Origin: a virus
IMG/VR virus record: IMGVR_UViG_3300038701_000484
Location: 1 to 38,063 of that record
DNA: 38,063 bases
Direction: 5' to 3' (one strand)
The translations under genes were made by a program, and so were the position numbers. Under the pieces are notes generated by a model. The model saw nothing but the letters and a program-made list of their open reading frames with translations. It made no database searches and was not told the DNA's origin. Below, piece after piece: positions 1 to 28,628 of this stretch (positions are counted from its first letter, which is position 1; the number at the start of each line of letters is the position of its first letter).

Positions 1-29
1 GGCAATGAATTATATACATTGTTAACTAC
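1..29 (+). other. Right half of an integron attC-like site, cut by the window edge
   Basis: The bases ending in ATACATTG and followed by GTTAACTAC (21-29) match the right arm and R' core box seen again at 292-311 and 912-930. GTTAACT fits the R' core GTTRRRY in all but the sixth base. The cassette that starts at base 22 carries the exact reverse complement, GTAGTTAAC, at 177-185, as expected for an integron cassette. The left arm of this site lies outside the window. Confidence 0.6.
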
Positions 30-180
30 TGGGCAAACTGTATGGTTAGACAAAGACCTTGCAAACAGTAGTAAAGTAGAAGTAGTTAGCCAAACACCAA
101 AAAGAATGTTTACAACAGTAACAAGCAATGGCGGATTAGACTCTTGGGAAGTAATGACTTATAGATTAACCGCCTTGTAG
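1..180 (+). CDS. Cassette 1 hypothetical protein, 5' end uncertain
   Basis: The frame is open from the first base to the TAG at 178-180 (59 codons). I do not recognise the protein. It reads as plausible coding sequence, with alternating polar and hydrophobic residues and the C-terminus SWEVMTYRLTAL. The cassette itself begins at base 22, so the true start is either TTG at 19, which overlaps the recombination point, ATG at 106, which would give only about 24 residues, or a start upstream of the window. The stop codon lies inside the R'' core box of the attC site that follows, a compact arrangement usual for cassettes. Function is unknown. Confidence 0.45.
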   Translation, partial: GNELYTLLTTGQTVWLDKDLANSSKVEVVSQTPKRMFTTVTSNGGLDSWEVMTYRLTAL

Positions 181-311
181 TTAACGTACTTGTATATGAT
201 TTTGTAGGCATAGACAAGCACTAAATAACGATTAAACACTTACTTAAAAGACAAGAAATAAATATTGAAATATTAACCAACTGCCTATAAATTATATACT
301 TTGTTATATGC
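177..311 (+). other. attC-like recombination site of cassette 1
   Basis: The outer left box GTAGTTAAC (177-185) is the exact reverse complement of the cassette's first bases (21-29). The right box is GTTATATGC (303-311). Inner arms 192-210 (GTATATGATTTTGTAGGCA) and 282-299 (TGCCTATAAATTATATAC) pair almost throughout, with one unpaired base and two wobble-type differences. Extrahelical bases and a long variable loop are hallmarks of attC sites, which are recombined as folded single strands by integron integrases. The length, 135 bp, is in the range of long chromosomal attC sites. The pairing is seen directly; the integron role is inferred. Confidence 0.68.
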
Positions 312-492: not shown

Positions 493-537
493 GCATATAA
501 CATTTCTTGGCTATGATTAGTAGCGTGGGTTAATAAC
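493..537 (+). other. Degenerate or shortened attC-like site of cassette 2
   Basis: GCATATAAC (493-501) is the exact reverse complement of the first bases of cassette 2 (GTTATATGC, 303-311), so it is the R'' box. A candidate right box, GTTAATAAC, lies at 529-537. The long paired inner arms of the neighbouring sites are missing; only a short GCTA/TAGC pairing (511-524) is visible. The site is either minimal or has lost its right half together with the start of the next cassette. Confidence 0.45.
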
Positions 538-551
538 TAAAATTTATAAAA

Positions 552-800
552 ATGAAACTAACAGCAGAAGAATTAATAAATAAGCACTTAGAATTAGTAG
601 GCGGAAAATATCAAGGCATAAAAGACGGGAACGTTTACGAAGCTTGTATAAACGCAATAAATGAAGCTATTAATTATAGCCAGTGTTGTAAAAGCGATAG
701 CGAGCAGTTAGTTTGTGAAAAATGTAACGGAACTGGTGGTTATAGCTACACTGATGAAATAGGTTTTAACTACAAGACTTGCGAGTGCCAAACAAACTAA
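552..800 (+). CDS. Cassette 3 protein with a zinc-finger-like CxxCxGxG motif (82 aa)
   Basis: The N-terminal half looks helical (MKLTAEELINKHLELV, then NVYEACINAINEAI). The C-terminal third carries CEKCNGTGG followed about 20 residues later by CEC, so four cysteines could bind one zinc ion, as in DnaJ-type or rubredoxin-like knuckles. Similar small proteins with a helical head and a CxxCxGxG tail occur in Bacteroidota accessory DNA and phages; no function is known to me. The gene lies between the degenerate site at 493-537 and the attC-like site at 805-930. Confidence 0.6.
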   Translation: MKLTAEELINKHLELVGGKYQGIKDGNVYEACINAINEAINYSQCCKSDSEQLVCEKCNGTGGYSYTDEIGFNYKTCECQTN

Positions 801-804
801 TTGT

Positions 805-930
805 TTACAACGGACGAGTGTATGAGCAGTAGCCAACACATAAGTAAGTAAATAATAAAAAAAATAAATATTAAACAACTGCAATAGTAAAAACGCCTAA
901 CGGCTATTGCTTATACACATTGTTAGGCAC
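805..930 (+). other. attC-like recombination site between cassettes 3 and 4
   Basis: The left arm at 818-834 (GTGTATGAGCAGTAGCC) pairs with the right arm at 902-918 (GGCTATTGCTTATACAC): 15 of 17 positions are complementary and the other two are G-T wobbles. The site ends with the R' box GTTAGGC (922-928), a perfect match to GTTRRRY. Its own R'' box, around TTACAAC (805-811), is degenerate. A second inverted pair, GCCTAAC (895-901) with GTTAGGC (922-928), lies at the right end. Architecture and spacing match the site at 177-311. Confidence 0.65.
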
Positions 931-938
931 AGTTAATT

Positions 939-1172
939 ATGTTACTAAAAATATATAAATCGATGCTTGAAACAGCACAAAACCAAAGAATACCAAAATA
1001 TATAGAAATGACCTTCCATATAGACAAAAACCAGAGTAAAACTTTTTGGGAAGATGAATCATTAAAAAACGAACACGAAATGTTATTTGATGAGTGGGAT
1101 AATAAAGGTGATAGCAGATATACAAAAAAGTTTTACGGTGTTACATACGCTATCCAATTTAATCATAGATAG
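939..1172 (+). CDS. Cassette 4 hypothetical protein (77 aa)
   Basis: This is a short, charged, soluble protein beginning MLLKIYKSMLETAQ, without recognisable motif. It lies between the core box at 922-930 and that box's exact reverse complement GTGCCTAAC at 1180-1188, so it is the single gene of cassette 4. The ATG sits only 9 bases after the core box. The opposite strand is also open over most of this stretch, but the cassette boundaries and orientation favour this reading. Function is unknown. Confidence 0.55.
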   Translation: MLLKIYKSMLETAQNQRIPKYIEMTFHIDKNQSKTFWEDESLKNEHEMLFDEWDNKGDSRYTKKFYGVTYAIQFNHR

Positions 1173-1179
1173 CCTTATT

Positions 1180-1210
1180 GTGCCTAACACGTAATAAGAA
1201 CACATAAACA
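1180..1210 (+). other. Left half of an attC-like site, truncated at the phage junction
   Basis: GTGCCTAAC (1180-1188) is the exact reverse complement of the start of cassette 4 (GTTAGGCAC, 922-930). The next bases, ACGTAATAAGAACAC, should be the left arm, but no complementary right arm and no GTTRRRY box follow before the HTH gene at 1222, nor inside it. The array therefore stops in mid-site, and the boundary with phage-like DNA lies at about 1189-1215. Confidence 0.5.
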
Positions 1211-1221
1211 ATTTAACCCTT

Positions 1222-1494
1222 ATGAATACTACAACAAAAGAAAACAAAGAGTTTAAAAGTGAACTGTTTTACAAGAGTTTTAAGACTGAAAGGTTGAGAA
1301 GTGAACTAGAAAAAGAAGCAAAGAAGGCTATCTCAATAAGAAAAGAAAACACAACTCAAAAAGATGTAGCCGAAACAATAGATTATTCATTAACTAAAGT
1401 TAAGCAAATAGAGAATGGGACTTGTAAAGATATAGACGCAATACTTAATTATATAAGCTATCTTAACTTTAAGGCAGTAATAGTAATTAATTAA
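1222..1494 (+). CDS. Helix-turn-helix (XRE/Cro-like) regulator
   Basis: The 90-residue protein has a Cro/C1-type DNA-binding motif at residues about 44-66: TQKDVAETIDYSLTKVKQIENG, with the usual pattern of a first helix, a turn and a recognition helix ending in IENG. The N-terminal 40 residues are charged and helical. As the first gene of the + block it could repress or time the early operon, or could be an antitoxin-like orphan. Its leader (ATAAACAATTTAA) resembles that of the next gene (ATAAACAATTAAA), which suggests both belong to the phage rather than to the cassette array. No partner toxin is visible. Confidence 0.7.
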   Translation: MNTTTKENKEFKSELFYKSFKTERLRSELEKEAKKAISIRKENTTQKDVAETIDYSLTKVKQIENGTCKDIDAILNYISYLNFKAVIVIN

Positions 1495-1522: not shown

Positions 1523-1936
1523 ATGAACAAAAAAAACTATCTTAGCAATCTGTTTGACAGTGCTCTTTCTTCTGACGGAGTCTGTAAATACGTTGATAAT
1601 TCAGGGATTAATGTTGTTTTTAAGGGTGTAAAAATAACTAAATCAAATAAAGGTGATATACTTTTGAAATCAACAGAGACAGATTTTTATATAGATATTG
1701 ATGATTGTGAACATGACATAAAAACAAAGGATCATTTTAAAAGTTTTGCTTTGAGATATTCTTTAGATAGGTGTTACAAGACAATAAATATGATATCAAA
1801 ACTCATAGCTAATGAAATGGAGAGTAGAAGGAACTATAAAAAAATTATTTTTTATAAAGGATTAAGAAAATATTATTTAACTAAAATCACAAATATAAAT
1901 GCAAGTATTCGAGAAATTAAAGAAAAAGAATGTTAA
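1523..1936 (+). CDS. Hypothetical early protein (137 aa)
   Basis: I do not recognise this protein. The N-terminal half alternates short beta-like stretches (INVVFKGVKITKS, GDILLKSTETDFYIDI); the C-terminal half is basic and probably helical. It precedes and overlaps by 38 bases the single-strand annealing protein gene, so it may be translationally coupled to the recombination module. The long overlap leaves the exact C-terminus of this gene and the start of the next slightly uncertain. Confidence 0.6.
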   Translation: MNKKNYLSNLFDSALSSDGVCKYVDNSGINVVFKGVKITKSNKGDILLKSTETDFYIDIDDCEHDIKTKDHFKSFALRYSLDRCYKTINMISKLIANEMESRRNYKKIIFYKGLRKYYLTKITNINASIREIKEKEC

Positions 1937-2495
1937 AAAATACATTCAAAAGAAAGGTAAACAAGATTACATTCCATGGGCGAATGCATGGGGTATGTTA
2001 AAGGATGAGTTTCCTAAGGCTAGAAGAAAAGTTTATGAGGATCCAGAGACAGGCCTTAATTACTTCCATGATGGCAGAACAGCTTATGTAAAAGTAGGGG
2101 TTATTATTGATGATATGGAAGAGATTGATTATTTACCTGTTATGGATTTTAGGAATAAGTCTATCCCTGTAAATGAAATAACTTCTATGCATGTAAACAA
2201 GACTATACAAAGATCAACAGTCAAAGCTATTGCTCTCCATGGATTAGGATTAGAGCTTTGGGCAGGGGAAGACATAGAGTCGGGAGACACTTCTTCTGTA
2301 GTGCCTGACAAGAAAGGAGTAAAGAAGCTTATAACGCTAACAAAAGGTGATAAAAATTGGGGAAAAGTTTTAAGTTACATCGATCAGAACCCGAAATCAA
2401 CAATAGACGCGTTAGTCAAAAATTTAAGAAGTAAATATCAAATATCAAAAGAAACAAAAAATGAGCTTAAAAAACACCTTGAATCGATTAAATAA
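1899..2495 (+). CDS. Single-strand DNA annealing protein, Sak3 type (DUF1071)
   Basis: The 198-residue protein contains the core signature of the DUF1071/Sak3 annealase family: IPWANAWGMLKDEFP near residue 25, YFHDGRTAYVKVGVII near 55, LPVMDFRNKSI near 79, and QRSTVKAIALHGLGLELWAG near 105. Such proteins anneal complementary single strands during phage recombination and replication-end repair. The C-terminal 70 residues look like a small helical domain. It overlaps the next gene, a PD-(D/E)XK exonuclease, by 35 bases, and an SSB-like gene follows, which is the classical composition of a two-component phage recombinase. The family is recognised from motifs only. Confidence 0.82.
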   Translation: MQVFEKLKKKNVKKYIQKKGKQDYIPWANAWGMLKDEFPKARRKVYEDPETGLNYFHDGRTAYVKVGVIIDDMEEIDYLPVMDFRNKSIPVNEITSMHVNKTIQRSTVKAIALHGLGLELWAGEDIESGDTSSVVPDKKGVKKLITLTKGDKNWGKVLSYIDQNPKSTIDALVKNLRSKYQISKETKNELKKHLESIK

Positions 2496-3201
2496 TGATA
2501 AAGACTACTATGGGAGTTTTGGTAAGAAGTATCTATCAAACTCAGACATAGATGTGTTACTATCGAACCCTAGAATGTTTGGACGTGAAAGAGAAACAAC
2601 GCTGCCTATGGTCCAAGGCAGATACTTCCATGTAGCGATGTTGGAGCCACATAAAATAAATGACTTTGATATTGTTTCAGCAAGCACAAGAAATACTAAG
2701 ATATACAAGGAAAGAGTTTCGTCTTCTGAAGAAAATATATTACTATTAGAGAAAGAAGTGGACGATTTAAATAATTGTATTAATGCAATGAAAAGTAATT
2801 TTTTCTTCTTCGAAAATATATACAATGATAGTAATGAATACGAAGTCCCCATGATCACGGAGATATTTGGCAAAGAGTGGAAAGGAAAGGCTGATATAGT
2901 TACTGATGATTGTCTTATAGATATAAAGACGACAGGTGATATAGATAGTTTTAAGTATAGTGCAAAAAAATATAACTACGACAGTCAAGCATGGATATAT
3001 GAGCAATTATTTGGTAAACCACTAGTGTTTTATGTGGTATGTAAAAAGACGCTTAGATTAGGCGTTTATGAACCTACAGATGAGTTTTTGTCTGGAGGTA
3101 GAGCTAAAGCTGAGAAGGCGGTGCAAGTCTACGACCGATTTTTTTCAGAGGATTCAAATGAAAACGTGGACAATTATTTTATAACAGAAAAATTATTTTA
3201 A
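2461..3201 (+). CDS. PD-(D/E)XK exonuclease (RecB-like), partner of the annealase
   Basis: The 246-residue protein matches the phage exonuclease group with a RecB-like fold. An acidic residue lies in EVPMITEI (about 127), Asp145 in GKADIV, then D154-I-K156 in LIDIKTTGD, and the following helix has Gln and Tyr (YDSQAWIYEQL, about 174-184), as in motif QxxxY. The N-terminus (KKYLSNSDIDVLLSNPRMF) is typical of these enzymes, as is GRYFHVAMLEP. It should resect double-stranded ends to give the single strands bound by the annealase encoded just upstream. Start ATG 2461 overlaps the annealase gene. Confidence 0.8.
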   Translation: MSLKNTLNRLNNDKDYYGSFGKKYLSNSDIDVLLSNPRMFGRERETTLPMVQGRYFHVAMLEPHKINDFDIVSASTRNTKIYKERVSSSEENILLLEKEVDDLNNCINAMKSNFFFFENIYNDSNEYEVPMITEIFGKEWKGKADIVTDDCLIDIKTTGDIDSFKYSAKKYNYDSQAWIYEQLFGKPLVFYVVCKKTLRLGVYEPTDEFLSGGRAKAEKAVQVYDRFFSEDSNENVDNYFITEKLF

Positions 3202-3203
3202 TT

Positions 3204-3536
3204 ATGGCAAGTTTAAATTCACTTTACATCAAGAAAGAAACACTAGAAACACTAGTAAAAACGTTAGAAAAAAAGGGCGATAAAGGCGTTGAATTAACGA
3301 TGAGTATCAATGACGAGGGTAATGAATATTTCCAGAACGTCAGTGCTTACGTGTCTCAGTCAAAAGAGCAGAGAGAAAACAAGAGCCCTAGGTTCTATGT
3401 TGGTAATGGTAATACGTTTTGGACAGATGGTGTGATTGAGGTTGTTAAGAAACCAAAACAAGATGAGGTAAACTCATCAGAAATAAAAAACAAACCTGAA
3501 TCATTCGAAGAAGATGGTGACGATTTACCGTTCTAA
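3204..3536 (+). CDS. SSB-like single-stranded DNA-binding protein
   Basis: This 110-residue protein has a beta-rich body (VELTMSINDEG, SAYVSQSKEQRE, PRFYVGNGNTFWTDG) and a disordered acidic tail ending EEDGDDLPF. The tail matches the C-terminal tip of bacterial SSB (DDDIPF), which recruits replication and repair proteins. I cannot confirm the OB fold from sequence alone, but tail, size and position behind an annealase-exonuclease pair make a phage SSB the best call. It begins 2 bases after the exonuclease stop and is followed by a hairpin terminator. Confidence 0.7.
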   Translation: MASLNSLYIKKETLETLVKTLEKKGDKGVELTMSINDEGNEYFQNVSAYVSQSKEQRENKSPRFYVGNGNTFWTDGVIEVVKKPKQDEVNSSEIKNKPESFEEDGDDLPF

Positions 3537-3558
3537 ATTCTAAAAAAGTAATTTTTGT

Positions 3559-3587
3559 AAACGGGTCTGAAAATGGCCCGTTTTTTT
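3559..3587 (+). terminator. Hairpin terminator after the SSB-like gene
   Basis: AAACGGGTC (3559-3567) pairs with GGCCCGTTT (3575-3583), including one T-G wobble, around a TGAAAAT loop, and a run of seven T begins at 3581. This is a good intrinsic terminator for the + strand. No TAnnTTTG promoter is visible between it and the gene at 3607, so it may only reduce transcription into the downstream genes. Confidence 0.7.
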
Positions 3588-3606
3588 AATCTATAAGTCA
3601 TAAATA

Positions 3607-3795
3607 ATGGATAATTTAATAAGTATAGCAGAAGATAAAACCTTAACCAAAGAGGAACGTATAAGTATATTGTGTAGGATTGACACCTTCAATCACACAG
3701 AGCTAGGGTCGGACAGTACTGATTCAGAAAGAGCTGAAGTTAAAGAACAACAAAAGATAATCGATAAATTAATAAAAGACTTAGAGAATGAGTGA
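3607..3795 (+). CDS. Small hypothetical early protein (62 aa)
   Basis: This short, acidic, probably all-helical protein (TLTKEERISILCRIDTF near the N-terminus, then KEQQKIIDKLIKDLENE) has no recognisable family. It overlaps the next gene by 8 bases (ATGAGTGA), which supports a real coupled reading frame. It is the first gene after the terminator. Function is unknown. Confidence 0.6.
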   Translation: MDNLISIAEDKTLTKEERISILCRIDTFNHTELGSDSTDSERAEVKEQQKIIDKLIKDLENE

Positions 3796-4096
3796 TTCAG
3801 TTAAAAAATACAACGAAATACTAAACGAAGAGAAATCAAGCCTACCTAAACCTTTTGTAGTGAATAATATTAAACCCAAACATTACGAATTAATGGGGGT
3901 TGAGGTTAAGGATATACTAGAAGAGGTGCTAGATAAGATTGAGGTAAGCGAATTTAACATGTCTTTGAATGAGGCTGGTTGGTACCAGCAAGCTATGCAA
4001 TACTTCCTTAGATTTTACGCTAAGAATGGAGTAGAGGATTTAGAAAAAGGGATTGAATCAATGAAAATAATGATAAAAAGCATGAAAAATGAATGA
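3788..4096 (+). CDS. DUF3310-like phage protein
   Basis: The 102-residue protein has the layout of DUF3310: a PKHYEL motif (residue about 30), VEVKDILEEVL, then YQQAMQYFLRFYAKNGVEDLEKGIESM, matching the family pattern PxHY ... E(V/I)xDI ... A(I/M)xYLxRxxxKxGxEDLxKA. The family is common in phages next to nucleotide-metabolism and replication genes; its biochemical role is not settled to my knowledge. Here it lies between a small unknown gene and an HTH protein, with 8-base overlaps on both sides. Confidence 0.6.
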   Translation: MSDSVKKYNEILNEEKSSLPKPFVVNNIKPKHYELMGVEVKDILEEVLDKIEVSEFNMSLNEAGWYQQAMQYFLRFYAKNGVEDLEKGIESMKIMIKSMKNE

Positions 4097-4424
4097 GCTG
4101 AGAAGCGTTATTATAAAAACACTTGGTTATGATCCATTAAAAAAAACAAGGAAGGATGAGTATGTGTTTTCTAGGGCTATTTTTATAATAATTTCAACAA
4201 AAAAATTGATGAAAGATTATAAATCGATATCTGACTTTTTGGGGATTAGCAGGTCTAGTATATACAATTACATAGATAACGTTATACCTTACGTCAAGTC
4301 TTCTAGAAAGGAATCATTGCAAATGGTAATAGATAGTTTTGAAGGCGTAGAGGTTGATGATGATGTTGATTACAAAGAAATGTACTATAAATTAAAATGT
4401 GAAATGAATGGTAACGATATTTAA
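4089..4424 (+). CDS. HTH protein resembling DnaA domain IV
   Basis: The 111-residue protein begins with a basic segment (DPLKKTRKDEYVFSRAIFIII) followed by SISDFLGISRSSIYNYIDNV. This resembles the C-terminal DNA-binding domain of DnaA, where a conserved arginine-rich helix precedes an HTH (..IGxxLGxRDHSTV..), although the diagnostic DHST is replaced by SRSSI. Such stand-alone domains occur in Bacteroidota phages near replication genes and may mark origin binding. It overlaps the primase-helicase gene by 17 bases, which fits a replication role. A generic HTH regulator is the alternative. Confidence 0.55.
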   Translation: MNELRSVIIKTLGYDPLKKTRKDEYVFSRAIFIIISTKKLMKDYKSISDFLGISRSSIYNYIDNVIPYVKSSRKESLQMVIDSFEGVEVDDDVDYKEMYYKLKCEMNGNDI

Positions 4425-6822
4425 GAACATAAGAGAGACATCGACTCCCTTTTACAGGTCTGTTGACTTCTGTCTTAAAAGAATAAAAGAGGGTGACTCT
4501 AAAGAAATAATAGAGAGAGTACGTGTAGAGCCTGATAAGAATAAAAGAAATGACATCAAAAAAGAGCTGCCTGCTGTTTGTTTTTCGGGTAAGTTCACAA
4601 GAAGAGCTGACGATGCTATAATTGAGCATAGTGGGTTCATGTGTTTAGATTTCGATGATTATGATTCTGAAGAGGCCATGAAAGAAGAGAAGAATAGAAT
4701 CATACAGGATGATTATGTGTACTCTTGCTTTGTTAGTCCATCAGGTGAGGGTCTTAAGGTTTTGGTTAGAATACCAAAAGACATAGACGATCATAAGAGG
4801 TACTTTAATGCACTAAAGGATCACTTCGGAAGCGAACACTTTGACAGTACATCTAAAAACATATCTCGCGTGTGCTATGAGAGTTATGATGATGATTTAT
4901 ACATTAACATAAACTCAAAAATATGGGATAAAAAGTCTGAGCATGAGTATAGGCCAGTAGATAGACAAACCGAGAAGCCTACGGTGCCAATAACTGACGA
5001 GAATAAGATTGTTGAAATACTTATGAAGTGGTGGACTAAAAAGTACGGTTTGGTCGAAGGTGAGCGGAACCATAACGTGTATATATTAGCGTCTGCATTC
5101 AACGATTATGGTGTTAACAGGTCCTTAGCTGAGTATATTATAGGTCAAATGGAGCAACCAGACTTCAAGAGAAGTGAGATAATGAACACTATATCTTCAG
5201 CCTACAGTAATACATCTAACTTCGGAACAAAGTATTATGAGGATGAGATTGTTATGTCTAAGATAAAGAGGGAGTTGAATAAAGGAAAATCCCCGAAAGA
5301 CATAAAAAAGGAGATGCCAAATCTTCCCGTAGAAGAAGAGATATTCGACGATGTAATTAAAGACGCTGAAAAGGAATCGAATATCAGGAAGTTTTGGACA
5401 AAATCAGACAAAGGCGTTATAAAAATAATTCATTATCAGTTTAAGGATTTTTTAGAGGAGTACGGATTCTATAAGTATGCACCTCACAATAGTGATAAGT
5501 ACATATTTGTTAGGGTGACTAATAATCTTATAGATAAGGCCAATGAGGAAGAGATTAAAGACTTTACTTTAAAATATTTAGAAAAATTTGATGACTTATC
5601 TATATATAACTATTTTGCTGACAAGACAAGGTTTTTTAAGGAGGATTTTCTATCTTTACTAGATACTGTAAGGGTTCATTTCGTGAAAGACACTAAGACT
5701 TTTAGTTACATATATTTCAGGAATTGTGCCCTGAAAGTGACACGTGATGATATCGTAAAAGTGGATTATGTTGATTTGAACGGATATGTTTGGAGGGACC
5801 AAGTTGTTGATAGAGATTTCGATTTCTGTGACTCAAGTGATTGCGACTTCAAAAAGTTTATCCATAATATAGCAGGGAACGAAGACAAGAGGATTGATTC
5901 ATTGGAATCAACGATTGGCTTTCTTATGTCAGGTTACAAAGACCCAGGCTATTGTCCAGCTGTTATATTAAATGATGAGGTAATAACTGATAATCCAGAA
6001 GGAGGAACAGGTAAAGGCTTGTTTGTTCAATCTATAGGTCAAATGAAGAAGGTCGTTGCATTAGATGGAAAGATGTTTAAGTTTGATTCTCAGTTTGGTA
6101 TGCAAACAATATCTACAGACACACAGGTGGTTTCTTTTGATGACGTTAAGAAAGGTTTTAATTTCGAGAATCTTTTCTCTACCATAACAGAGGGTATAAC
6201 TATTGAAAAAAAGAATAAAGACGCAATTAAGGTTCCATTCAGTGAGTCGCCTAAGATTATAATCACAACTAACTACGCCATAAGAGGTAAAGGTAATTCC
6301 TTCGAAAGAAGGAAGTGGGAGCTTGAGTTTAAGAAACACTATTCTATAGACTTTACTCCAGTTGATGAGTTTGGAAAAAGATTTTTTGACGAATGGAGTG
6401 AGGACGAGTGGTGTTCTTTTGATAACTACATGATAAATAATCTTCAATTCTACTTAAACAGCGGACTAGTTCAGTCTGAGTTTAAGAACTTGCAGATAAG
6501 AAAATTAGCATCAGAAACTTGCCATGAATTCATTGAATGGTGTGGAATTATTGATGGAGTTCAGGGTACTGATGAGCTTAGTTTCAATAAGAAACTGTTT
6601 AAAGACAGTCTGTACAATGATTTTGTAAAAGATAACCCTGACTTTGGACCTAAAGCTAAAAGAACAATATCTAGGATTGCATTCTATAAGTGGCTAAACG
6701 CTTATGGTAATTTTTTCTCTGATGTTACTATTTTAGATGGAAGAGCAAGAGAAGGACGTTGGATTGAATTTAGAAATAAAGATTATGAGCAAGAAGAAAC
6801 AGATGAAGAAATACCCTTTTAG
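4408..6822 (+). CDS. Primase-helicase: VirE_N/BT4734-like primase fused to SF3-type helicase
   Basis: This 804-residue fusion begins with a primase-type domain: CLDFDD (residues about 78-83, metal-binding acids), SPSGEGLKVLVRI (about 110-122) and SRVCYESYDDD (about 152), the signature of the VirE_N/BT4734-like family. The C-terminal half is an SF3-like helicase with Walker A PEGGTGKGLF (about 530-540), Walker B VVSFDDV (about 573-579) and sensor IIITTN (about 617-622). It should prime and unwind DNA at the phage fork. The protein ends EQEETDEEIPF, an SSB-like acidic tip that is unusual for such enzymes. No phage DNA polymerase is visible, so the host enzyme is probably recruited. Confidence 0.85.
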   Translation: MVTIFKNIRETSTPFYRSVDFCLKRIKEGDSKEIIERVRVEPDKNKRNDIKKELPAVCFSGKFTRRADDAIIEHSGFMCLDFDDYDSEEAMKEEKNRIIQDDYVYSCFVSPSGEGLKVLVRIPKDIDDHKRYFNALKDHFGSEHFDSTSKNISRVCYESYDDDLYININSKIWDKKSEHEYRPVDRQTEKPTVPITDENKIVEILMKWWTKKYGLVEGERNHNVYILASAFNDYGVNRSLAEYIIGQMEQPDFKRSEIMNTISSAYSNTSNFGTKYYEDEIVMSKIKRELNKGKSPKDIKKEMPNLPVEEEIFDDVIKDAEKESNIRKFWTKSDKGVIKIIHYQFKDFLEEYGFYKYAPHNSDKYIFVRVTNNLIDKANEEEIKDFTLKYLEKFDDLSIYNYFADKTRFFKEDFLSLLDTVRVHFVKDTKTFSYIYFRNCALKVTRDDIVKVDYVDLNGYVWRDQVVDRDFDFCDSSDCDFKKFIHNIAGNEDKRIDSLESTIGFLMSGYKDPGYCPAVILNDEVITDNPEGGTGKGLFVQSIGQMKKVVALDGKMFKFDSQFGMQTISTDTQVVSFDDVKKGFNFENLFSTITEGITIEKKNKDAIKVPFSESPKIIITTNYAIRGKGNSFERRKWELEFKKHYSIDFTPVDEFGKRFFDEWSEDEWCSFDNYMINNLQFYLNSGLVQSEFKNLQIRKLASETCHEFIEWCGIIDGVQGTDELSFNKKLFKDSLYNDFVKDNPDFGPKAKRTISRIAFYKWLNAYGNFFSDVTILDGRAREGRWIEFRNKDYEQEETDEEIPF

Positions 6823-7075
6823 TATAGATGATTGGAGGTGGTGTGTAAAAAACGACTTTCAAATATATCTATACCCTGCACCAAGAAAAAGGTACAGAAT
6901 AGCTGTTAGAAGGAAAGGGATTACAACGAAAGGTAAAGACTTCATATTTCAATCAGGGCTTAAAATAGAAAGCCGTGAAATGGTTGGAGATGTTGAGTTT
7001 AAAGATGCTAGAGAGGCATCAGATTATGTTCCGTTTGTTTATAAAAAAATAAGAGAAAAGTATGAACAGAAGTGA
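6785..7075 (+). CDS. Hypothetical basic early protein (96 aa)
   Basis: The frame is open from further upstream (ATG 6737), but that start would overlap the primase-helicase by 86 bases. ATG 6785 (MSKKKQMKKYPFSIDDWRWC) or ATG 6803 is more likely. The protein is basic and rich in Tyr, Arg and Lys (YLYPAPRKRYRIAVRRKG), with an acidic, probably helical end. I do not recognise it; nucleic-acid binding would fit its charge but is a guess. It overlaps the next small ORF by 14 bases. Confidence 0.6.
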   Translation: MSKKKQMKKYPFSIDDWRWCVKNDFQIYLYPAPRKRYRIAVRRKGITTKGKDFIFQSGLKIESREMVGDVEFKDAREASDYVPFVYKKIREKYEQK

Positions 7076-7220
7076 AAAAATAAAAGAGATGGTTGATTTT
7101 TATATGAGTGTTTCAGGAATAGATTACACTAAGTATTTTAAAGATATGGACAATACTTCAATAAATCAGTATTATATTTGTATTTATGAACTTGATAGAC
7201 AGTTGAGCGATGGAATTTAG
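7062..7220 (+). CDS. Small hypothetical protein (52 aa)
   Basis: ATG 7062 opens a 52-codon frame ending at TAG 7218-7220. The product is MNRSEKIKEMVDFYMSVSG followed by an acidic, tyrosine-rich segment, and is probably helical. It fills the gap between the basic protein and the SF2 helicase and overlaps both (14 and 11 bases), the same overlap style as the rest of the operon, which supports it being a gene. Function is unknown. Confidence 0.5.
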   Translation: MNRSEKIKEMVDFYMSVSGIDYTKYFKDMDNTSINQYYICIYELDRQLSDGI

Positions 7221-8442
7221 GGATTATCAAAAAAGAATAATAAAAGAAGGTTCTTCCATCCTTAGAAATAAAGGTATGCTTTATTTGTCTATGGAGGTGA
7301 GAACTGGCAAGACTTTGACGTCATTAGGCATAGCTGATGATTGTGAACATAAGTGTGTATTGTTTATCACTAAAAAGAAAGCTATATCAAGTATAGAGGA
7401 CGACTATAAGTTATTGAATCCTTCTTTTGAAATGTACACTATAAACTACGAGAGTTTACATAAGATACCTGACAAGAAGTATGATCTAATCATACTAGAT
7501 GAAGCACACTCTATGGCTAAGTATCCAAAACCTAGCAACAGAGCCTTAAGGGTTAAGTCTATAATGGAAAAGTATAAACCTAACGCTATACTTTTATCAG
7601 GAACTCCTACCCCTGAAAGTTTTAGTCAAATGTATCATCAAGTGTACAGTATACCTAAAAACCCATTCAGAGGGTACTCTAATTTTTACAAGTTTTCTAA
7701 AGATTACGTAAACGTGACCAAGAGAATGATTGCTGGAAACATGGTGAATGATTACTCTAAGGGAAAGGATAGTATCATAGAAGAGATGAAGCCATATACT
7801 ATATCCTACACTCAAAAACAAGCAGGTTTCACTTCTAAAATAGAGGAGAAGATACTGAACGTAAGAATGTCTGATCAGACCTATGATTTAGCCAAAAAAC
7901 TAATAAAATATCTTGTTATAGAAGGAAAAGAAGAGGTTGTTTTGGCCGATACAGCTGTAAAATTGAAGCAAAAGCTTCATCAGATATTTAGTGGTACTGT
8001 TAAGTTTGAGTCAGGCAACAGTATGGTTATCGATACATCTAAAGCTGATTTTATTAAGAAAAACTTTGAAGGTTCTAGGATAGGTATATTTTATAAATTC
8101 AAAGAGGAATTGAACGTGTTGCGTCAAGTTTTTGGTGCAGAAAACTTGACAACAGAGTTAGATGTGTTCAATGAAACAGACTGTCAAGCTATAGCTCTTC
8201 AAATAGTTAGTGGAAGAGAAGGTATATCATTAAGACAAGCTGATTACTTAGTGTTCTATAATATAGACTTTAGCGCCACTAGTTATTGGCAAGCAAGAGA
8301 TAGAATGACCACAAAGGATAGGCTAAAGAATAAGGTGTATTGGATTTTCTCAGAAGGAGGAATAGAGGAGAAGATATACAAGCAAGTGATAAAAAAGAAA
8401 GATTATACATTAAGACATTTCAAGAAAGATTATGAAAAGTAA
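7210..8442 (+). CDS. SF2 DEAD/DEAH-type helicase (SNF2-like, phage type)
   Basis: The 410-residue protein carries ordered SF2 motifs: FRDYQKRII (Q-like motif), EVRTGKT (motif I, residues 29-35), DEAH (97-100), LLSGTPTP (motif III, about 132), VSGREGISLRQAD (motif V) and WQARDRMTTKDR (motif VI, with the arginine finger). It lacks accessory domains and is short, as in phage-encoded DNA translocases that remodel forks or recombination intermediates. It overlaps the following small gene by 11 bases. Whether it unwinds or only translocates on DNA cannot be told from sequence. Confidence 0.85.
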   Translation: MEFRDYQKRIIKEGSSILRNKGMLYLSMEVRTGKTLTSLGIADDCEHKCVLFITKKKAISSIEDDYKLLNPSFEMYTINYESLHKIPDKKYDLIILDEAHSMAKYPKPSNRALRVKSIMEKYKPNAILLSGTPTPESFSQMYHQVYSIPKNPFRGYSNFYKFSKDYVNVTKRMIAGNMVNDYSKGKDSIIEEMKPYTISYTQKQAGFTSKIEEKILNVRMSDQTYDLAKKLIKYLVIEGKEEVVLADTAVKLKQKLHQIFSGTVKFESGNSMVIDTSKADFIKKNFEGSRIGIFYKFKEELNVLRQVFGAENLTTELDVFNETDCQAIALQIVSGREGISLRQADYLVFYNIDFSATSYWQARDRMTTKDRLKNKVYWIFSEGGIEEKIYKQVIKKKDYTLRHFKKDYEK

Positions 8443-8614
8443 ATACAAATACGTTCAGATAGAGAAAAGAGGTGATAAAGTATATTATCGAAGAAGAGCC
8501 ATGAGAGGTTACGGAGATAAAAGATACGAGAATGAAAAAGAAGCAGCTAAGTCTGCTGACTTAATTTTAATTAAAAACAGAGAAGAACCAGTAAATATAT
8601 ATAAAAGAAAATGA
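8432..8614 (+). CDS. Small basic protein, possibly AP2-like DNA-binding (60 aa)
   Basis: The layout YKYVQIEKRGDKVYYRRRAM, then GDKRYENEKEAAKSADL, resembles the three-strand-plus-helix AP2/ERF-like domain of phage endonucleases and integrases, where a basic sheet is followed by a helix with EAAxAxD. At 60 residues it would be the bare domain with no nuclease attached. It overlaps the helicase end by 11 bases and the MazG-like start by 4 (ATGA). The domain call is tentative; it is certainly a basic protein likely to contact nucleic acid. Confidence 0.5.
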   Translation: MKSKYKYVQIEKRGDKVYYRRRAMRGYGDKRYENEKEAAKSADLILIKNREEPVNIYKRK

Positions 8615-8907
8615 AAGAGTTTAATTTAATCAGACAATGGGCGGAAGAAAGAAATCTTATAAAAGGAGCTACGCCAGCCTCGCAATCAGAAAAATTATTC
8701 GAGGAGTGTGGAGAGTTGGTTAGGGCCATGATAGAGAAGAATATAAACAATCAGAAAGACGCTGTAGGAGATATTATAGTTGTTTTGACTATACTCATGA
8801 AGCAAGAGGGTGTTGATGTAGAGGAGTGTATAAGGATAGCCTACAACGAGATAAAAGACAGGACAGGAAAGATGGTAAACGGAGTTTTTGTAAAAGATAA
8901 AAAATAG
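8611..8907 (+). CDS. MazG-like nucleotide pyrophosphohydrolase
   Basis: The 98-residue protein shows the all-helical NTP-PPase core: EKLFEECGEL (metal-binding Glu31, Glu32, Glu35), then KDAVGDIIVVLTIL (Asp50 and Asp54), followed by an amphipathic helix and IKDRTGKMVNGVFVKD, a C-terminal pattern frequent in phage MazG homologues. These enzymes hydrolyse (d)NTPs to monophosphates; in phages the role has been linked to nucleotide pools or alarmone signalling. Here it sits among replication genes and overlaps its upstream neighbour by 4 bases. Confidence 0.78.
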   Translation: MKEFNLIRQWAEERNLIKGATPASQSEKLFEECGELVRAMIEKNINNQKDAVGDIIVVLTILMKQEGVDVEECIRIAYNEIKDRTGKMVNGVFVKDKK

Positions 8908-8910
8908 ATA

Positions 8911-9234
8911 ATGAAAGAACAACAAGAAATAGCAAAGCAGGCTATACTGCAAGGGAGTATATTTGTAGAGTTGCTAGAAGAATTAAATGCTAAGCAACAA
9001 CTTAAACAACAAATAAACAGAACAATAAGTATGATGGAGAAATATTTATTACCTTCGTATGATGCCATACATAAAGAAGACAGTCAAATAACACTAGGCA
9101 TGTCTAAGCAGTATGAGAAATCAATAGAATGGATGGTAAAATCACCTATAGAGAAACAACTTCAACTGTTTAAAAAAATAAACGAAGAAGATGTCAATGG
9201 AAATGAAACTATAAACCTAGAAAAATTTGAATAA
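8911..9234 (+). CDS. Hypothetical helical early protein (107 aa)
   Basis: A Glu/Gln/Lys-rich, largely helical protein (QQEIAKQAILQG, FVELLEELNAKQQLKQQINR) with likely coiled-coil character over residues about 5-45. It has no recognisable family. It starts 3 bases after the MazG-like gene and ends 1 base before the next ATG, so it is a regular member of the operon. Function is unknown. Confidence 0.6.
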   Translation: MKEQQEIAKQAILQGSIFVELLEELNAKQQLKQQINRTISMMEKYLLPSYDAIHKEDSQITLGMSKQYEKSIEWMVKSPIEKQLQLFKKINEEDVNGNETINLEKFE

Positions 9235-9235
9235 A

Positions 9236-9382
9236 ATGTTAGAAACAGGAGAAAACTTAATTGACATATTTGGATCTAAGAACAACGCATTAGTTGCTAT
9301 TGACTATGCAATGTACTTTGCTACATCAGAAAATAAATCTTATTTAAGATCTAAAAAAAAGGAGATTGAAGAAATCAGATAA
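9236..9382 (+). CDS. Small hypothetical protein (48 aa)
   Basis: ATG 9236 opens a 48-codon frame ending at TAA 9380-9382. The product begins MLETGENLIDIFGSKNNAL and ends in a basic helix (SKKKEIEEIR). The frame overlaps the following nuclease gene by 17 bases and begins 1 base after the previous stop, which fits the packing of the operon. I recognise no family. Confidence 0.5.
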   Translation: MLETGENLIDIFGSKNNALVAIDYAMYFATSENKSYLRSKKKEIEEIR

Positions 9383-9641
9383 GCTAAGATTAGATTGGGA
9401 GTCAAAGGGATACTACGTCATAAACTTAGTAAAGACTAATAAGAATGGTATCCCTGATTACCTAGCTTTAAAGGAAGGTGAACCGCCTATTTTTATAGAG
9501 AGTAAGGAGAAATGGGACAGGTTAAGTCAATTACAAAAATTCAGAATAAAAGAACTCATAGACCATGGTTACAAAGTTTTTATCAACGATAAGGAATTTA
9601 TTAAAGAAGAAAAAGAAGAAAACAGAACAAGTCTCTTCTGA
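9366..9641 (+). CDS. VRR-NUC-like nuclease (PD-(D/E)XK fold)
   Basis: The 91-residue protein has GIPDYLAL (residues 28-35, with metal-binding Asp31), then IFIESK (E45-x-K47), followed by LSQLQKFRIKELIDHGYKVFI, where the conserved Gln and the helix-strand end match small VRR-NUC phage nucleases, proposed to cut branched DNA. The start codon is TTG at 9366, since no ATG lies in frame without an intervening stop; AGGAG immediately precedes it but is closer than the usual spacing. It overlaps its neighbours on both sides. Confidence 0.68.
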   Translation: MKKSDKLRLDWESKGYYVINLVKTNKNGIPDYLALKEGEPPIFIESKEKWDRLSQLQKFRIKELIDHGYKVFINDKEFIKEEKEENRTSLF

Positions 9642-9912
9642 AGAAGAAAAAACAATAGAGTTTATAGCTATGCCATCGGTCGAGAAGGCGGAGTTACTGA
9701 TAGATATAAGCCCTGTAATATTATCAAACATAGATAAGATTTCAGCAGATGGACACCCTGAACAGTATATTGTTATAATAGAAAGTACTAATGAAAAATA
9801 TTTTGTATCATTTGATGTAGAAGACTATTTTTTTACTTTTTACGTCATAGACGAACTTGATGATGACGAGTTCCTTGACTTATTTAACGATAAATTAGAA
9901 ATACTCAAGTAA
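9565..9912 (+). CDS. Hypothetical early protein with lysine-rich N-terminus (115 aa)
   Basis: If read from ATG 9565 the protein has a short hydrophobic/basic start (MVTKFLSTIRNLLKKKKKK) followed by an acidic domain with alternating strands (EQYIVIIESTNEKYFVSF) and an acidic end (DELDDDEFLDLF). This start overlaps the nuclease gene by 77 bases, longer than elsewhere in the operon; ATG 9670 (MPSVEKAEL) is an alternative giving about 80 residues. No family recognised. The lysine run lies in the overlap and may simply reflect A-rich DNA. Confidence 0.5.
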   Translation: MVTKFLSTIRNLLKKKKKKTEQVSSEEEKTIEFIAMPSVEKAELLIDISPVILSNIDKISADGHPEQYIVIIESTNEKYFVSFDVEDYFFTFYVIDELDDDEFLDLFNDKLEILK

Positions 9913-9913
9913 A

Positions 9914-10081
9914 ATGAATAAAGAGAAGTATTTACACTTATGTAAAGAGAAGTCATGCAAGCTAATAACAGAGGCTTGTGATTTTTATAGTAATAACAAC
10001 ATCCAAGAGGCTACAATGTATATGCAAGAATTAGATGAAGTTCTCAGGGATTTAAAAGAATCATTTAGAGATGAGATTTAA
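9914..10081 (+). CDS. Small hypothetical protein (55 aa)
   Basis: ATG 9914 opens a 55-codon frame, probably all-helical (MNKEKYLHLCKEKSCKLI, then a helix EVLRDLKESFRDEI). It begins 1 base after the preceding stop and overlaps the metallophosphoesterase gene by 11 bases, so position and packing support a true gene. Function is unknown. Confidence 0.5.
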   Translation: MNKEKYLHLCKEKSCKLITEACDFYSNNNIQEATMYMQELDEVLRDLKESFRDEI

Positions 10082-11678
10082 TGAATTATCAGAAGAAGAT
10101 AAAGAGTACATAAAGTACATATATTATGAGAAGGAGATGTCTCATGAAGAAAAGATGGAGGTGCTTTCGAAGAAATTTAAGGCCGCTCCCAGAACAATAA
10201 GAGATTGGTGGAAAGACAAGTTAGACTTAAACAGAGACTACACGGGTCTACCATCTCAACTAGAAAAAGCCAAGAATAGACTTATAAAGAAGGACACAAA
10301 TGTTTTATTAGTTACTTCGGCTCAAAATAAAACAGGGGTGAATAAGAAGGCACTTATTAACATGATAAAATACTCTGAGTTTCTCAACAAGAAGGGAATA
10401 AAGACGGAGATAGTAGTAACACCATCAAGGTACAGGAATCCTTCTTCACCAATAGAGAACGAAAAGTATAACTCCGAGGAGTGGTGGGTTGATGATGTGG
10501 CCCCTTTTTTAGCTTACGGTAAGATAAAGTTCGGAGACACACTTATATCGTCAGACAGCAGGGTTAGGCCAACAGCAAAAGAGCCGTTAAATGGTTATGA
10601 GCTTATGGCTTCTGACAACCATTTGATTATATCTCACCCTAAGGTCCACTTCAAGACCTTGCCTAGGTTTAAAGATAAACCGTTGAGAAGTATGGCAACC
10701 ACAGGCTTTATTACTTACAAAAACTATTCTGATTCTAAGGCAGGAGATTTAGCTTATGAAAACCACTCGTATGGTTTTGTGGTGATAGAAAAAAGAAAGG
10801 ACGGAACTTGTAGTATACCTAGAAATGTTAAAATAAAGTCTAATGGAGACTTCTGCGATCTATGGTATCAAGTTGTTGACGGTAATGTATCGAGAATAAC
10901 CCATAGCGAAGGATTCGTTTGGGGTGATATACATGCTGACGTTGTTAATAAGGATTTCGTAGACTTAACTTTGAAGATGTTAAGAGAAAAACTAAAACCA
11001 AAGAAACAAGTGCTTCATGATGTTTTCGATGGATCAACAGTGAATCCTCACGAGACAAAAGACTTATACATACAGAGGAAAAAGATAAGAGAAGGCAAGC
11101 ACTTGATAGATAAGGAGATAGAAGAGTGTATGTCTCTTATTGATATGATTGACAACGACTCTGGCGATGAGTGTGAAACATACGTGTCGCTATCTAATCA
11201 TGATGTTTTTCTAGATAGAATGGTAAATGATTTCAATTGGAAGAAAGACCTACACAACTCACCGTCTTACTTGAGATTGGCTTATATACAGCAAACAGAA
11301 GACATTGAGAAGTACGGTTGCCTTATAGGGTATATTATAAACGAAAAGTTTAAGGGTAAAGTTAAGTACCTTAATTACGGAGAATCATTAGATATTTGTG
11401 GATATGAATCTGGCAGTCACGGTGATTTTGGAGCTAATGGAGCTAAAGGAAACTACAAGACATTTAGCAGATTGAACACTAAAATGATTCATGGGCATGG
11501 CCACTCACCTATTATTCACAACGGAGTAACAATGGTAGGAGTGACGTGTTACCTTAAGCAGTACTATAATAGGAGAGGTTTAAGCTCATGGGCTTACGCT
11601 CACTCCACTGTGCACCCTAATGGTAAAAATCAACTGTTAGTTTTCAGGGATGATTTAACCTTATCTATTATTGATTAA
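10071..11678 (+). CDS. HTH-metallophosphoesterase, similar in plan to phage T5 A1
   Basis: The 535-residue protein has an N-terminal HTH-like segment (HEEKMEVLSKKFKAAPRTI, about 25-45) and a calcineurin-type metallophosphoesterase core in order: GDIHAD (about 285), HDVFDG (about 317), LSNHD (about 373), a later SHGDFG (about 449) and HGHGHS (474-479). These are the metal ligands of a two-metal phosphoesterase. Position as last early gene, length and the HTH-plus-phosphatase layout recall T5 A1, which is involved in host DNA breakdown during T5 infection. A nuclease role here is inference; other MPE roles (RNA ligation repair, nucleotidase) remain possible. Confidence 0.7.
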   Translation: MRFNELSEEDKEYIKYIYYEKEMSHEEKMEVLSKKFKAAPRTIRDWWKDKLDLNRDYTGLPSQLEKAKNRLIKKDTNVLLVTSAQNKTGVNKKALINMIKYSEFLNKKGIKTEIVVTPSRYRNPSSPIENEKYNSEEWWVDDVAPFLAYGKIKFGDTLISSDSRVRPTAKEPLNGYELMASDNHLIISHPKVHFKTLPRFKDKPLRSMATTGFITYKNYSDSKAGDLAYENHSYGFVVIEKRKDGTCSIPRNVKIKSNGDFCDLWYQVVDGNVSRITHSEGFVWGDIHADVVNKDFVDLTLKMLREKLKPKKQVLHDVFDGSTVNPHETKDLYIQRKKIREGKHLIDKEIEECMSLIDMIDNDSGDECETYVSLSNHDVFLDRMVNDFNWKKDLHNSPSYLRLAYIQQTEDIEKYGCLIGYIINEKFKGKVKYLNYGESLDICGYESGSHGDFGANGAKGNYKTFSRLNTKMIHGHGHSPIIHNGVTMVGVTCYLKQYYNRRGLSSWAYAHSTVHPNGKNQLLVFRDDLTLSIID

Positions 11679-11680
11679 AA

Positions 11681-11713
11681 AGAAAGGCATCTAATTGATG
11701 CCTTTCTGTTTTT
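11681..11713. terminator. Bidirectional terminator between early and late blocks
   Basis: AGAAAGGCATC (11681-11691) and GATGCCTTTCT (11697-11707) form a perfect 11-bp stem with a 5-base loop. On the + strand it is followed by GTTTTTTATT and on the - strand by TTTTTAATC. It lies exactly between the convergent stop codons of the metallophosphoesterase and the 1944-aa late protein, so it should stop transcription from both sides. Confidence 0.9.
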
Positions 11714-14700
11714 TATTTATACTTTTCGATTAATTTCTCGTACTCTTTACCTTTCTTCTTAAGTATCTTATCACCATACCTAACGACAGAGGCTGCTTCT
11801 GAAGGAAGAAAACCTGCATTGTATAGTGTTTGAATGAAACTCAAGGACAATAGTGCTGTGTCACTGTTAGGGTCATACTTGCCAGTGGTTTCTCTACCCA
11901 TAAACTCACTAGTGTATTCACCTGTGATGGATGACTTGATAATGTCATAGTTGTCTATAATTTTCTCTGGGAGAATACCATACATACCGAAATCCTGTAA
12001 CACAGACTGACCAGGAGAGTCACCATCAAACAGTACAAATGGTTCTTCAGGCTTGACGCCTAACTCTTTCTGTAAAGGAGACAGTTCCTCTTCAGACTGT
12101 AAAGACCTAAGCCCTTTGTTCATTAAAGTTAAAGTAGGCTTGTCTAGTACAGGTATTGGAGATAAGTAATCAGAAACAATGTAAGTAGCCTTACCTTTTA
12201 TCAAGTTATTAATCCTCTTTTCTCTTTCCTCTTCAGGCTCGTCATATCCTAGTATAGAAGAAATAGCTTCGAAAATACCATAACTTATTGATAAAGATAT
12301 ACCATGGAAAGCTATTACTTCTGCCGCTGTAGCCCCTAAGGATCTTAAATGAAACAGCCTCTCTTCTGTCGACATGTTTTTATTAGTAACATTTATAATG
12401 TCGGAATGAAGTCTCATTTTTTGATTAATAGCAAAGTTAGCGAAAGGCATTACTGTCTTTCTGATTAGCTGAGGAAAGAAGGAATTATCTTTCATAAAAA
12501 GACCTTGCATATCATTATCTGACGTGTTTTGGTTACGAGCAACTTGTGTGTTAGCGTAGTCAGCTATTTCTTGGTCTACTTTGTGATTCTCCCAATCTAT
12601 CTTAGCTGTTCCGTACTTTTTCTTGTGCATTTGCTTATAATAGGATACCCATGATACTTTCGCTATATATACATCTGGATTAGACAAGAAAGTTGTCATC
12701 CACTTGTCACTTACACTTTCAACGTATTGACCTATCTTATTAAGTACTTTTGCGTTACCTTCAGATATGCTTGTGTTTATTTTATTTAAAGAAGAAATAG
12801 CTCCCATGTCACGATTAGATACATCTTGACCTGATTCCGAAAGTATTTTTTGTATGGCTTGAGCATTGTTAAAATATTCACCAATATCTAATCTACCTGA
12901 ATTTATAAATGTATTCAAGGCGACTGGAAGCACCTGTTTTATTGGTTGCGTGATACCACCTAAAGCTTTTGAGGCTCCAAGCCTAGATAATCTATCTAAC
13001 GTCTTAGAAAGAGCTTTAAGCTCTTTCTCGTCGACATACGAAGACTGCCTTTTATCGTTAACGTATCTCGTTATGATTTTTCGCGCTAAATCGGCATCTT
13101 CATCATTGGAGAAAGCGTTATTAAAATCTTTAGTGTCTAATGCCCCTTGTATTTGTCTAACAGTAGCGGCTGTGTCAACATCAATATTAAGACTTGTGAA
13201 CTGATTAGCCATATTCACGTCAAAGTTTAAGTCTAAGTAATGAGTTGTTGTTACTTGACCGTTTATCTCTGTTTTAGGCAAGGAGTTGCTTATTTTAGCT
13301 TTCATCAAGTTGCCTGACTCCTTCTTGTACAAATAGTTGTCAAGATTAAATGTCTCTATTAAATCCTTAGACTTTTTAGGAACTCCTGCTACCTTTTTGA
13401 AAACTCTAGGTGTGTAGTTTTCTTCTTGATTTAATAACTTATTGTAAACAGACTCACTTACCTCTCTGTACTTGTCGTAGTCTTTTTTGAATGCATCAAC
13501 CCAAAAATCAACAGCTTTTAAATTATCTTCGCTCATTCTAGATCTAACCTCTTCTACGCTATTAGCATCACTTAATAACTCATCATATACTTCTTGATAT
13601 TTCTGACCTTTTTTTACCTCTCTTTTGTCTCTTGATTTCAGTAATGACTCATAGCTTTGTTTGATCATGTTTTTCATGTACTCAAACTGAGTAGATGGGT
13701 CTAGGTCTGAGTCTAATGCCTCTCTGTATATAACAGACAACAAACCTCTGCTGTATATGTTTTTATCAGAATGGAAATCTTTAGATTTCTTAAACATATC
13801 TAGGTAACTATTAATCACAAAGTTTGACTTGTTTTGAGATCGGTTTGCTTGCTGTTTCATTTTACTGAATCCAATAGTGTCAAGGAATTTTTGAGAGTTC
13901 TCTACACCAAATATAGACTCAAACATTACATTAATACTAGTAAGATAACCTCCCTTTACTCTGCCGACAGATTTACTCCAAAAAAACCTAAGAGGCCTAG
14001 CTTTTCCTTTAAAGTTAGACATTCTTCTGGCACCCATGGCTGTAGAAAGCATTGTCTCCAAGCCTCCGTAAGTACCATTAGATATCATGTTCATTATACC
14101 AAAGTTTACATCTGACAAGAACTCTAAATTAAGACTGTTCTTATCTATGTTAAGGAATAATCCCATCAAATCTTTAGCTTTGCTGTTGAAGTTTATTTTT
14201 TGTCCAGTGAAAGGATCTTTCCCTGTTTTTAGAATTTGTTTTATGAGTAATCTGTTTATGTCAAAATTCTTGATCATTCTAGCCCTGGCAATCTTAAGCC
14301 TTTCAGTATCTACTACACCTGACTCTTTTTGAGATTTTATTATCTCCATAACCTCATCATAGGTCATACCATCAATATCGTTTTCTTCTTCGAACTTAGA
14401 CACAACCTCTTGCTCTATTTTTTTTCTTTGAGATTGCAGTGCTTTTTCAGTGTAAGAATTAACCTCAGACAAGCTGATTCCTTTTTGAGACAATCCTTCC
14501 TTAATTTTCTTGCCAATCTCAATATAAGCGTCAATATCACCTACCATAGATGGGTTTATTTTTCCATACTCTTTAGCGGCACGGTGAATATTTACGTCTA
14601 TACTTTTATTTCCTTTCTTGGCCCTAGCCCTTAGATTATTAGCTTCAGATAGTTTTTCTCTATAATTAGACTTTGTCATTACGTTTTCCATGTAATTTAA

Positions 14701-17547: not shown

Positions 17548-17553
17548 GGTTTT

Positions 17554-20043: not shown

Positions 20044-20059
20044 ATGTTAAAACGTTTTT

Positions 20060-20068
20060 GCAAATATA
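20060..20068 (-). promoter_or_regulatory. Bacteroidota-type -7 promoter element for the ejection genes
   Basis: On the - strand this reads TATATTTGC, a full match to TAnnTTTG, in the 32-base gap ahead of the 248-aa gene. No clear TTG is found at the -33 spacing, so strength is uncertain. It would give a leader of roughly 10 bases. Confidence 0.5.
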
Positions 20069-20075
20069 CTAAAAA

Positions 20076-25914: not shown

Positions 25915-25916
25915 AA

Positions 25917-27526: not shown

Positions 27527-27529
27527 GAT

Positions 27530-27778
27530 TTATTTTTTAAATTTCCTAACTACACCGCGAAGAGAATCTCTTTTTTTGGTTTGTCTATAAAGTCTATTTT
27601 GTAGATTTTTTCTGGTATCACTAGGACTCCCTATGATTTTTTTATTGAAATGCCCCTTAGGTTCTGAGTCTAATCGTTTTATATCCTGTCTAGTTTTCAG
27701 GACAGCAGCACCAGCTTTTCTAGCTAAAGCTTTAGTATTTTTTTTGTTTGATTTTTTCTTTTTCTTATCACTATACAT
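27530..27778 (-). CDS. Small very basic protein (82 aa)
   Basis: The product MYSDKKKKKSNKKNTKALAR continues with many Lys and Arg to the end (RGVVRKFKK) and contains almost no acidic patches. It might bind DNA or RNA, or be a minor head protein; I recognise no family. The frame is open to an ATG at 27823, but that start lies inside a terminator hairpin and upstream of a promoter. ATG 27778, about 17 bases after the TATCTTTGC element, is therefore the better start. Confidence 0.6.
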   Translation of the reverse strand: MYSDKKKKKSNKKNTKALARKAGAAVLKTRQDIKRLDSEPKGHFNKKIIGSPSDTRKNLQNRLYRQTKKRDSLRGVVRKFKK

Positions 27779-27794
27779 ACTAGCTATTTTAAAT

Positions 27795-27845: not shown

Positions 27846-27875
27846 CTTAAAATAAACCTCCTTTTTTTTATATGA

Positions 27876-28601: not shown

Positions 28602-28628
28602 TTTGATTTAATTTAAAATTGTTAGATA

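Follow-up and report, generated by a model that had tools for sequence, protein, structure and literature searches.

A podovirus genome in which a cassette array probably joins the phage's own attI-like site through its R'' box

We found that the cassette array at one end of a podovirus genome meets the phage genes at what is, with good probability, a site-specific recombination joint at the phage's own attI-like site, where the cassettes are joined by R'' in a mirror image of the classical integron. Comparing sequences among phages established that the docking site is fixed, that cassettes are exchanged there as whole units, that the joints fall at R'', that the attC body is tied to the gene that follows it and that wobble pairs are distributed asymmetrically between the two strands. 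The stretch of DNA analysed (the window) is an entire linear IMG/VR record, 38,063 bases long; the array occupies positions 1-1188 and appears to lie in the early-gene region of the phage (Table 1). Compared with MW202828, a circular genome of 60,850 bases (terminase 62%, primase 56% and helicase 62% identity), about 22 kb of the window's phage is absent, beyond the HTH gene and beyond the right end, and therefore both ends of the record probably fall within the phage genome.

Table 1. Features of the cassette array, the docking site and the adjoining phage genes in the window
Feature	Position	Strand	Basis and remarks
Cassette unit 1	1..185	+	attC right arm cut by contig end (1-20), R' 21-27, R'' ending 185; R'/R'' pairing and arm match
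Complete attC 1	179..309	+	R'' to 185, body 186-302, R' 303-309; arm score 12
Complete attC 2	495..691	+	R'' 495-501, long loop, R' 685-691; arm score 13, equalled by 0/300 shuffles
Cassette ORF, 82 aa, CxxC motif	552..800	+	starts in attC 2 loop, passes through R'
Complete attC 3	805..928	+	R'' to 811, body 812-921, R' 922-928; arm score 13, equalled by 0/300 shuffles
Last cassette	922..1188	+	ORF 939-1172 (77 aa); ends exactly at R'' box 1182-1188
Phage docking site (attI-like)	1189..1221	+	conserved flank upstream of HTH gene; same sequence behind a different last cassette in L152
XRE-type HTH protein, 90 aa	1222..1494	+	anchors array end; holds the place of the recombinase gene of other phages
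Podovirus genome part	1523..38060	.	Sak-type annealing protein, exonuclease, primase, helicase, terminase, portal; collinear with MW202828

An initial strict scan returned no attC sites because it required neighbouring boxes to pair with each other. Scoring of arms against 300 shuffles identified three attC-like sites with both arms (R''185/R'303, R''501/R'685 and R''811/R'922; arm scores 12-13), each equalled by at most one shuffle. The classical layout, RYYYAAC - arm - loop - arm - GTTRRRY between genes, was present in these three complete sites and in 44 strict sites of the array set, and with at least two attC sites and no intI the window qualifies as a CALIN. The open frame 1-180 of cassette unit 1 passes through R'; the circular phage G003 carries a similar unit (L094), as well as an 89% identical counterpart of the attC 1 body. 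Units similar to ORF 552-800 occur in contig L148 and in Tenacibaculum phage JQ. The R'' box that closes the last cassette, GCCTAAC, pairs at 7/7 positions with the start of its own cassette at 922.

Several further features of these arrays were recorded. Different cassette proteins have the peptide AIN..CC in common (window 552-800; L148:430-687; L151:413-703 and 4387-4686), because the attC right arm and R' box belong to the coding sequence. Two candidate truncated attC sites were rejected, one after cassette 2, whose right arm lies inside ORF 552-800, and the second site of G009 (64470), which is complete with its right arm within a gene. The phage contig G003 (L135, L139) measures 94 kb and is bounded by direct terminal repeats of 127 bases; one array of about a dozen units spans about 3.3-11.5 kb and a second, smaller array lies at 82-84 kb. 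Bacteroidota genomes (L104-L130) contain scattered units starting GTTRRRY..CTGGGC, mostly single and not in arrays, some of which end with a complementary box up to 3 kb away.

The initial annotation had described an array that meets phage-like genes within about 40 bases of a last attC site without a right arm or GTTRRRY box. These observations were confirmed: the HTH gene, the first phage gene, starts 33 nt after the joint, the best downstream arm score was 7 (equalled by 39% of shuffles) with no GTTRRRY partner, and a window-wide search for the missing right arm gave a best match 24 kb away among 702 GTT sites, which is chance level. The same annotation had taken ACGTAATAAGAACAC for the left arm of an attC and the array as broken in mid-attC, and neither reading survived comparison with an independent 62.8-kb contig, L152, whose HTH protein is 74% identical to that of the window. 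Behind different cassettes, the two sequences match at 41 of 44 positions in a segment that extends beyond the HTH start codon, and their DNA similarity starts at window position 1186, the AAC of the box (joint TGCTTTACAAC/ACGTAATAACAACACATAAAC in L152 versus TGTGCCTAAC/ACGTAATAAGAACACATAAAC in the window, the slash marking the joint). Since the same bases follow a different cassette in L152, positions 1189-1221 are phage flank rather than attC, and the junction therefore lies between 1188 and 1189, at the R'' box itself.

Profile and protein searches with the HTH gene recovered relatives in L148, L149, L150 (a near-identical copy of L149), L152, L153, L154 and Tenacibaculum phage JQ, every one of which has an R''-like box shortly upstream of the HTH start; a partner cassette start for the terminal box of L154 was looked for and not identified. 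The window's HTH protein has an XRE/Cro-type fold, with PHROG HTH/regulator matches and a weak, below-cut-off match to Pfam HTH_3. Its structural model (mean pLDDT 76) gave a loose fold match to restriction-system C-proteins (TM about 0.45, E above 0.1), the resemblance to C-protein and XRE regulators being loose. The HTH profile had no match in 395 Flavobacteriales genomes, in a search that lacked a positive control, and searches for an empty docking site and for further copies of the window's site returned known contigs only, none of them with an empty site. HTH phages such as the complete JQ encode no tyrosine recombinase, and none was found in L152 or, in agreement with the initial annotation, in the window's 38 kb, which likewise holds no IntI-family integrase, about 22 kb of this phage lying outside the window. 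Two JQ cassettes (L151:866-1486 and 2224-2889) carry the annotation adenine-specific DNA methyltransferase.

L149 and L153, near-identical phages of different origin, differ chiefly in their cassettes (L153 3283-4936 versus L149 4008-4933) and provide a natural experiment for cassette exchange. They are 98.8% and 97.1% identical across the main flanks, with 91.9% identity immediately to the right of the joint. No sequence is shared from the left edge (CTGCAAATGGYAGGTAAC; pattern GGYAGGTAAC/) to the right edge (TACTTMCTAAGCAGAAG; pattern /TACTTMCTAAGCAG), and both edges fall at fixed AAC points. In each of the two phages an attC body begins immediately after the left flank, and the right flank is immediately preceded by an R'' box.

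A recombinase with its own site, which the initial annotation had considered would count against an integron-mediated event, did turn up, in other phages, where it supports an event of the integron type instead. The array of phage contig G005 terminates in GGTAGGTAAC/TAACATATATATTACACC, and a gene for a 274-aa tyrosine recombinase begins 52 bases on. The same contig has a second, inverted docking site within a 75-base repeat (87% identical), at which a different cassette is joined at the same base. These copies (L141:18996-19872; G005 42850, minus strand) lie about 3.9 kb apart, with the arrays pointing inward and the recombinase between them. Four relatives of the G005 recombinase (L174-L177, about 39% identity) start about 40-55 bases past an R''-type box, as do the "integrases" of two isolates, Leef_1 (a Polaribacter phage) and Ingeline_1 (a Cellulophaga phage). 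The best recombinase match among the 395 Flavobacteriales genomes, in prophage G375, is located between primase and head protease, again with an R''-type box about 40-55 bases before it; because this site is internal to the prophage, it is not the prophage's attachment site.

With a strict detector, a terminal R'' was found before 8 of 14 HTH or recombinase genes, whereas 33 of 709 other ORFs of this sequence set had one (Fisher p = 1.3e-7); true sites, the second G005 site among them, make up part of the 33. In L154, L175, L176, L177, Ingeline_1 and JQ the last unit was missed by the detector and read by eye. A candidate primary site, directly joined to R'', adjoins an HTH gene in the window and recombinase genes in other phages. 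In both sequence and fold the recombinase is nearest to XerA and then to IntI4. Against the IntI model TIGR02249 the recombinases of these related phages fell below the cut-off (131 versus 265 bits), the IntI-specific stretch being unmatched, and no canonical IntI over the cut-off was found in 12 Bacteroidota genomes. The cassettes directly before the L174 and L177 recombinases show DPPY/DPPF motifs by eye, which, together with the methyltransferase cassettes of JQ, suggests anti-restriction cargo. Longer XerA-like recombinases in Flavobacteriales genomes (L194, L207 and L208; open frames of about 357-381 aa) lie shortly past a cassette-like R'', itself followed by a short hairpin, and are possibly chromosomal cousins.

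Cassettes might also have been laid down once and be exchanged now solely by homologous recombination in the conserved flanks, with no active site-specific system. The 97-99% identity of the L149 and L153 flanks and the lack of a recombinase in JQ, L152 and the window fit this account, and the cassette swap between L149 and L153 could have occurred in that way. We nevertheless consider it unlikely, given that homologous exchange does not by itself set both edges at AAC and leaves unexplained both the two inverted site copies with different cassettes in one phage (G005) and the recombinase that adjoins the site.

For site-specific joining at R'', the unit that moves was evaluated in 49 cleaned attC sites, with exclusions set by hand after the data were seen. 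Similarity between attC bodies went with a shared downstream R' box (mean 3.8/7, permutation p = 0.0002), whereas the upstream R'' box showed no such link (2.4/7, p = 0.88), and the uncleaned set pointed in the same direction (3.5 versus 2.7, with backgrounds of 2.4 and 2.5). Bodies ending in GCCTATAAATTATATACTTT were always followed by GTTATAT, whereas their R'' was variously TAGTTAAC, ATCACAAC or CCGCTAAC; the body of the window's attC 2 recurs in JQ and L148, with R'' boxes that all differ. Several cassette genes begin within the attC loop and extend across R' (window 552-800 and, in JQ, three or four annotated genes), an arrangement that makes better sense for a unit cut at R''. ORFs ran over R' in 12 cases versus 4 over R'', a difference that is non-significant alone (p = 0.08).

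Mismatches in the arms were also distributed unevenly, with 88 sense-strand G.T wobbles versus 17 on the antisense strand (p = 1e-12), and the gene-sense strand folded better in 33 of 44 attC sites; wobble asymmetry alone could equally mark mismatches of the antisense strand. In four class 1 integrons, attI1 leads directly into a cassette start and the attC body comes after the gene, the opposite layout at both ends; their wobbles (5 bottom, 2 top) are too few for the wobble test. The linkage of body and R', taken together with the sense-strand arm bias, therefore indicates that the mobile unit consists of attC body, gene and R'', and that it is joined at R''. The phage arrays do not follow the classical rule of an attC body tied to the upstream gene, a crossover at R' and use of the bottom strand. 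IntI acts on folded strands by cutting within the first box; a folded sense strand handled in this way would be cut at R'' (5'-RYYYAA^C), the box at which the joints were observed. The strands folded in IntI recombination are bottom strands (PMC8946536).

It is improbable that the last site is what remains of a classical attC, decayed or truncated where a captured part of a bacterial array ends, with phage genes next to it by chance. Scattered attC-like units do exist in Bacteroidota genomes and phage cassette clusters are known (PMC9892861), but a conserved phage flank lies directly past R'', the same clean edge is present in many phages, and the linkage of the body contradicts a classical unit. 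Among the four explanations offered initially, phage capture of cassettes by integron-type recombination stands, while prophage insertion into an attC, later deletion and chimeric assembly are disfavoured because the clean joint between R'' and the site recurs in independent contigs and isolates. Insertion of a phage or prophage into an attC of a bacterial array is very improbable: the position of the array at the end of the contig leaves room for bacterial DNA on its left, but arrays are internal in the circular G003, G009 and G012 (direct terminal repeats of 95-127 bases) and in the isolate JQ, prophage G375 has its site internally, and the combination of an integrase and attachment site at the junction with bacterial DNA beyond was not found, the window holding no integrase. 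Chimeric assembly has hardly any probability, since, although this is a metagenome contig and both the window and L148 end inside an array, in the independent contig L152 a cassette meets this flank at exactly the same base, and isolates share the architecture.

Under integron-type recombination at the phage's own site, an attI-like site immediately before the HTH gene would receive cassettes through their R'' boxes. Each cassette would run attC body - R' box - gene - R'' box, which makes the genes point toward the site and places each attC body 5' of its gene. The sense strand of attC would fold, single-stranded, as the recombination substrate. Where present at the site, the XerA-like tyrosine recombinase would be the likely catalyst, whereas HTH phages probably rely on a recombinase supplied in trans or retain arrays formed at an earlier time. 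The cassettes may be transcribed by read-through from upstream phage promoters, and the HTH protein may have a role at the site. Going by these sequence patterns, we lean towards the broader view that Bacteroidota phages and prophages own an integron class, with a XerA-like integrase or an HTH protein beside an attI-like site, R'' insertion via a folded sense strand, genes directed toward the site and reading from phage promoters.

A puzzling contig edge is in this way turned into evidence for a phage-borne gene-capture system of reversed polarity, with a defined site, a substrate and a candidate recombinase for the uptake of accessory genes by phages, including the annotated DNA methyltransferases of JQ. 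A XerA-like enzyme beside attC-like sites also bears on the origin of integron integrases. In addition, an "integrase" in a flavophage need not imply a temperate life style, of which the integrases of Leef and Ingeline were taken as signs by Bartlau et al. (PMC8776804); if phages do own such an integron class, these genes would be cassette integrases and not proof of lysogeny.

The initial annotation regarded an integron-mediated or attC-targeted event as new. Carriage of cassettes by phages was already known (PMC9892861), and the apparent novelty is confined to the reversed polarity with joining at R'', the fixed phage site and the anchoring XerA-like recombinase or HTH gene, of which we found no description in the literature searched. 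Qi et al. reported attC clusters without an integrase (CALIN) in virulent phages, including Polaribacter phage P12002L, and several phage attC sites were recombined by IntI1 in the laboratory; the "divergent directions" of attC that they saw in P12002L were attributed to mosaicism (PMC9892861). Their phages resemble those described here in having attC-like sites and small cassettes, and the report differs in being without a fixed docking site, an HTH or recombinase anchor, or joining at R'' (PMC9892861). In the "atypical" integrons of Treponema, cassettes and integrase are transcribed in one direction (PMC3607928), with intI transcribed toward attI, whereas the phage recombinase is transcribed away from the site and the cassettes are reversed. 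By sequence as well as fold, archaeal XerA is the nearest match to the phage recombinase, which nevertheless, in contrast to XerA and XerC/D, adjoins cassette arrays and not a dif site. Like classical integrons (IntI, attI and attC, as in class 1 and the Vibrio superintegrons), the phage systems have a recombinase gene that, where present, starts beside the putative primary site, cassette arrays, and imperfect palindromes with RYYYAAC / GTTRRRY boxes and joints at AAC/GTT. Classical integrons, however, use IntI, place the attC body 3' of the gene and cross over at R', whereas the phage recombinases are XerA-like and under the IntI model cut-off, and the phage arrays have the body 5' of the gene, the probable crossover at R'' and genes directed toward the site.
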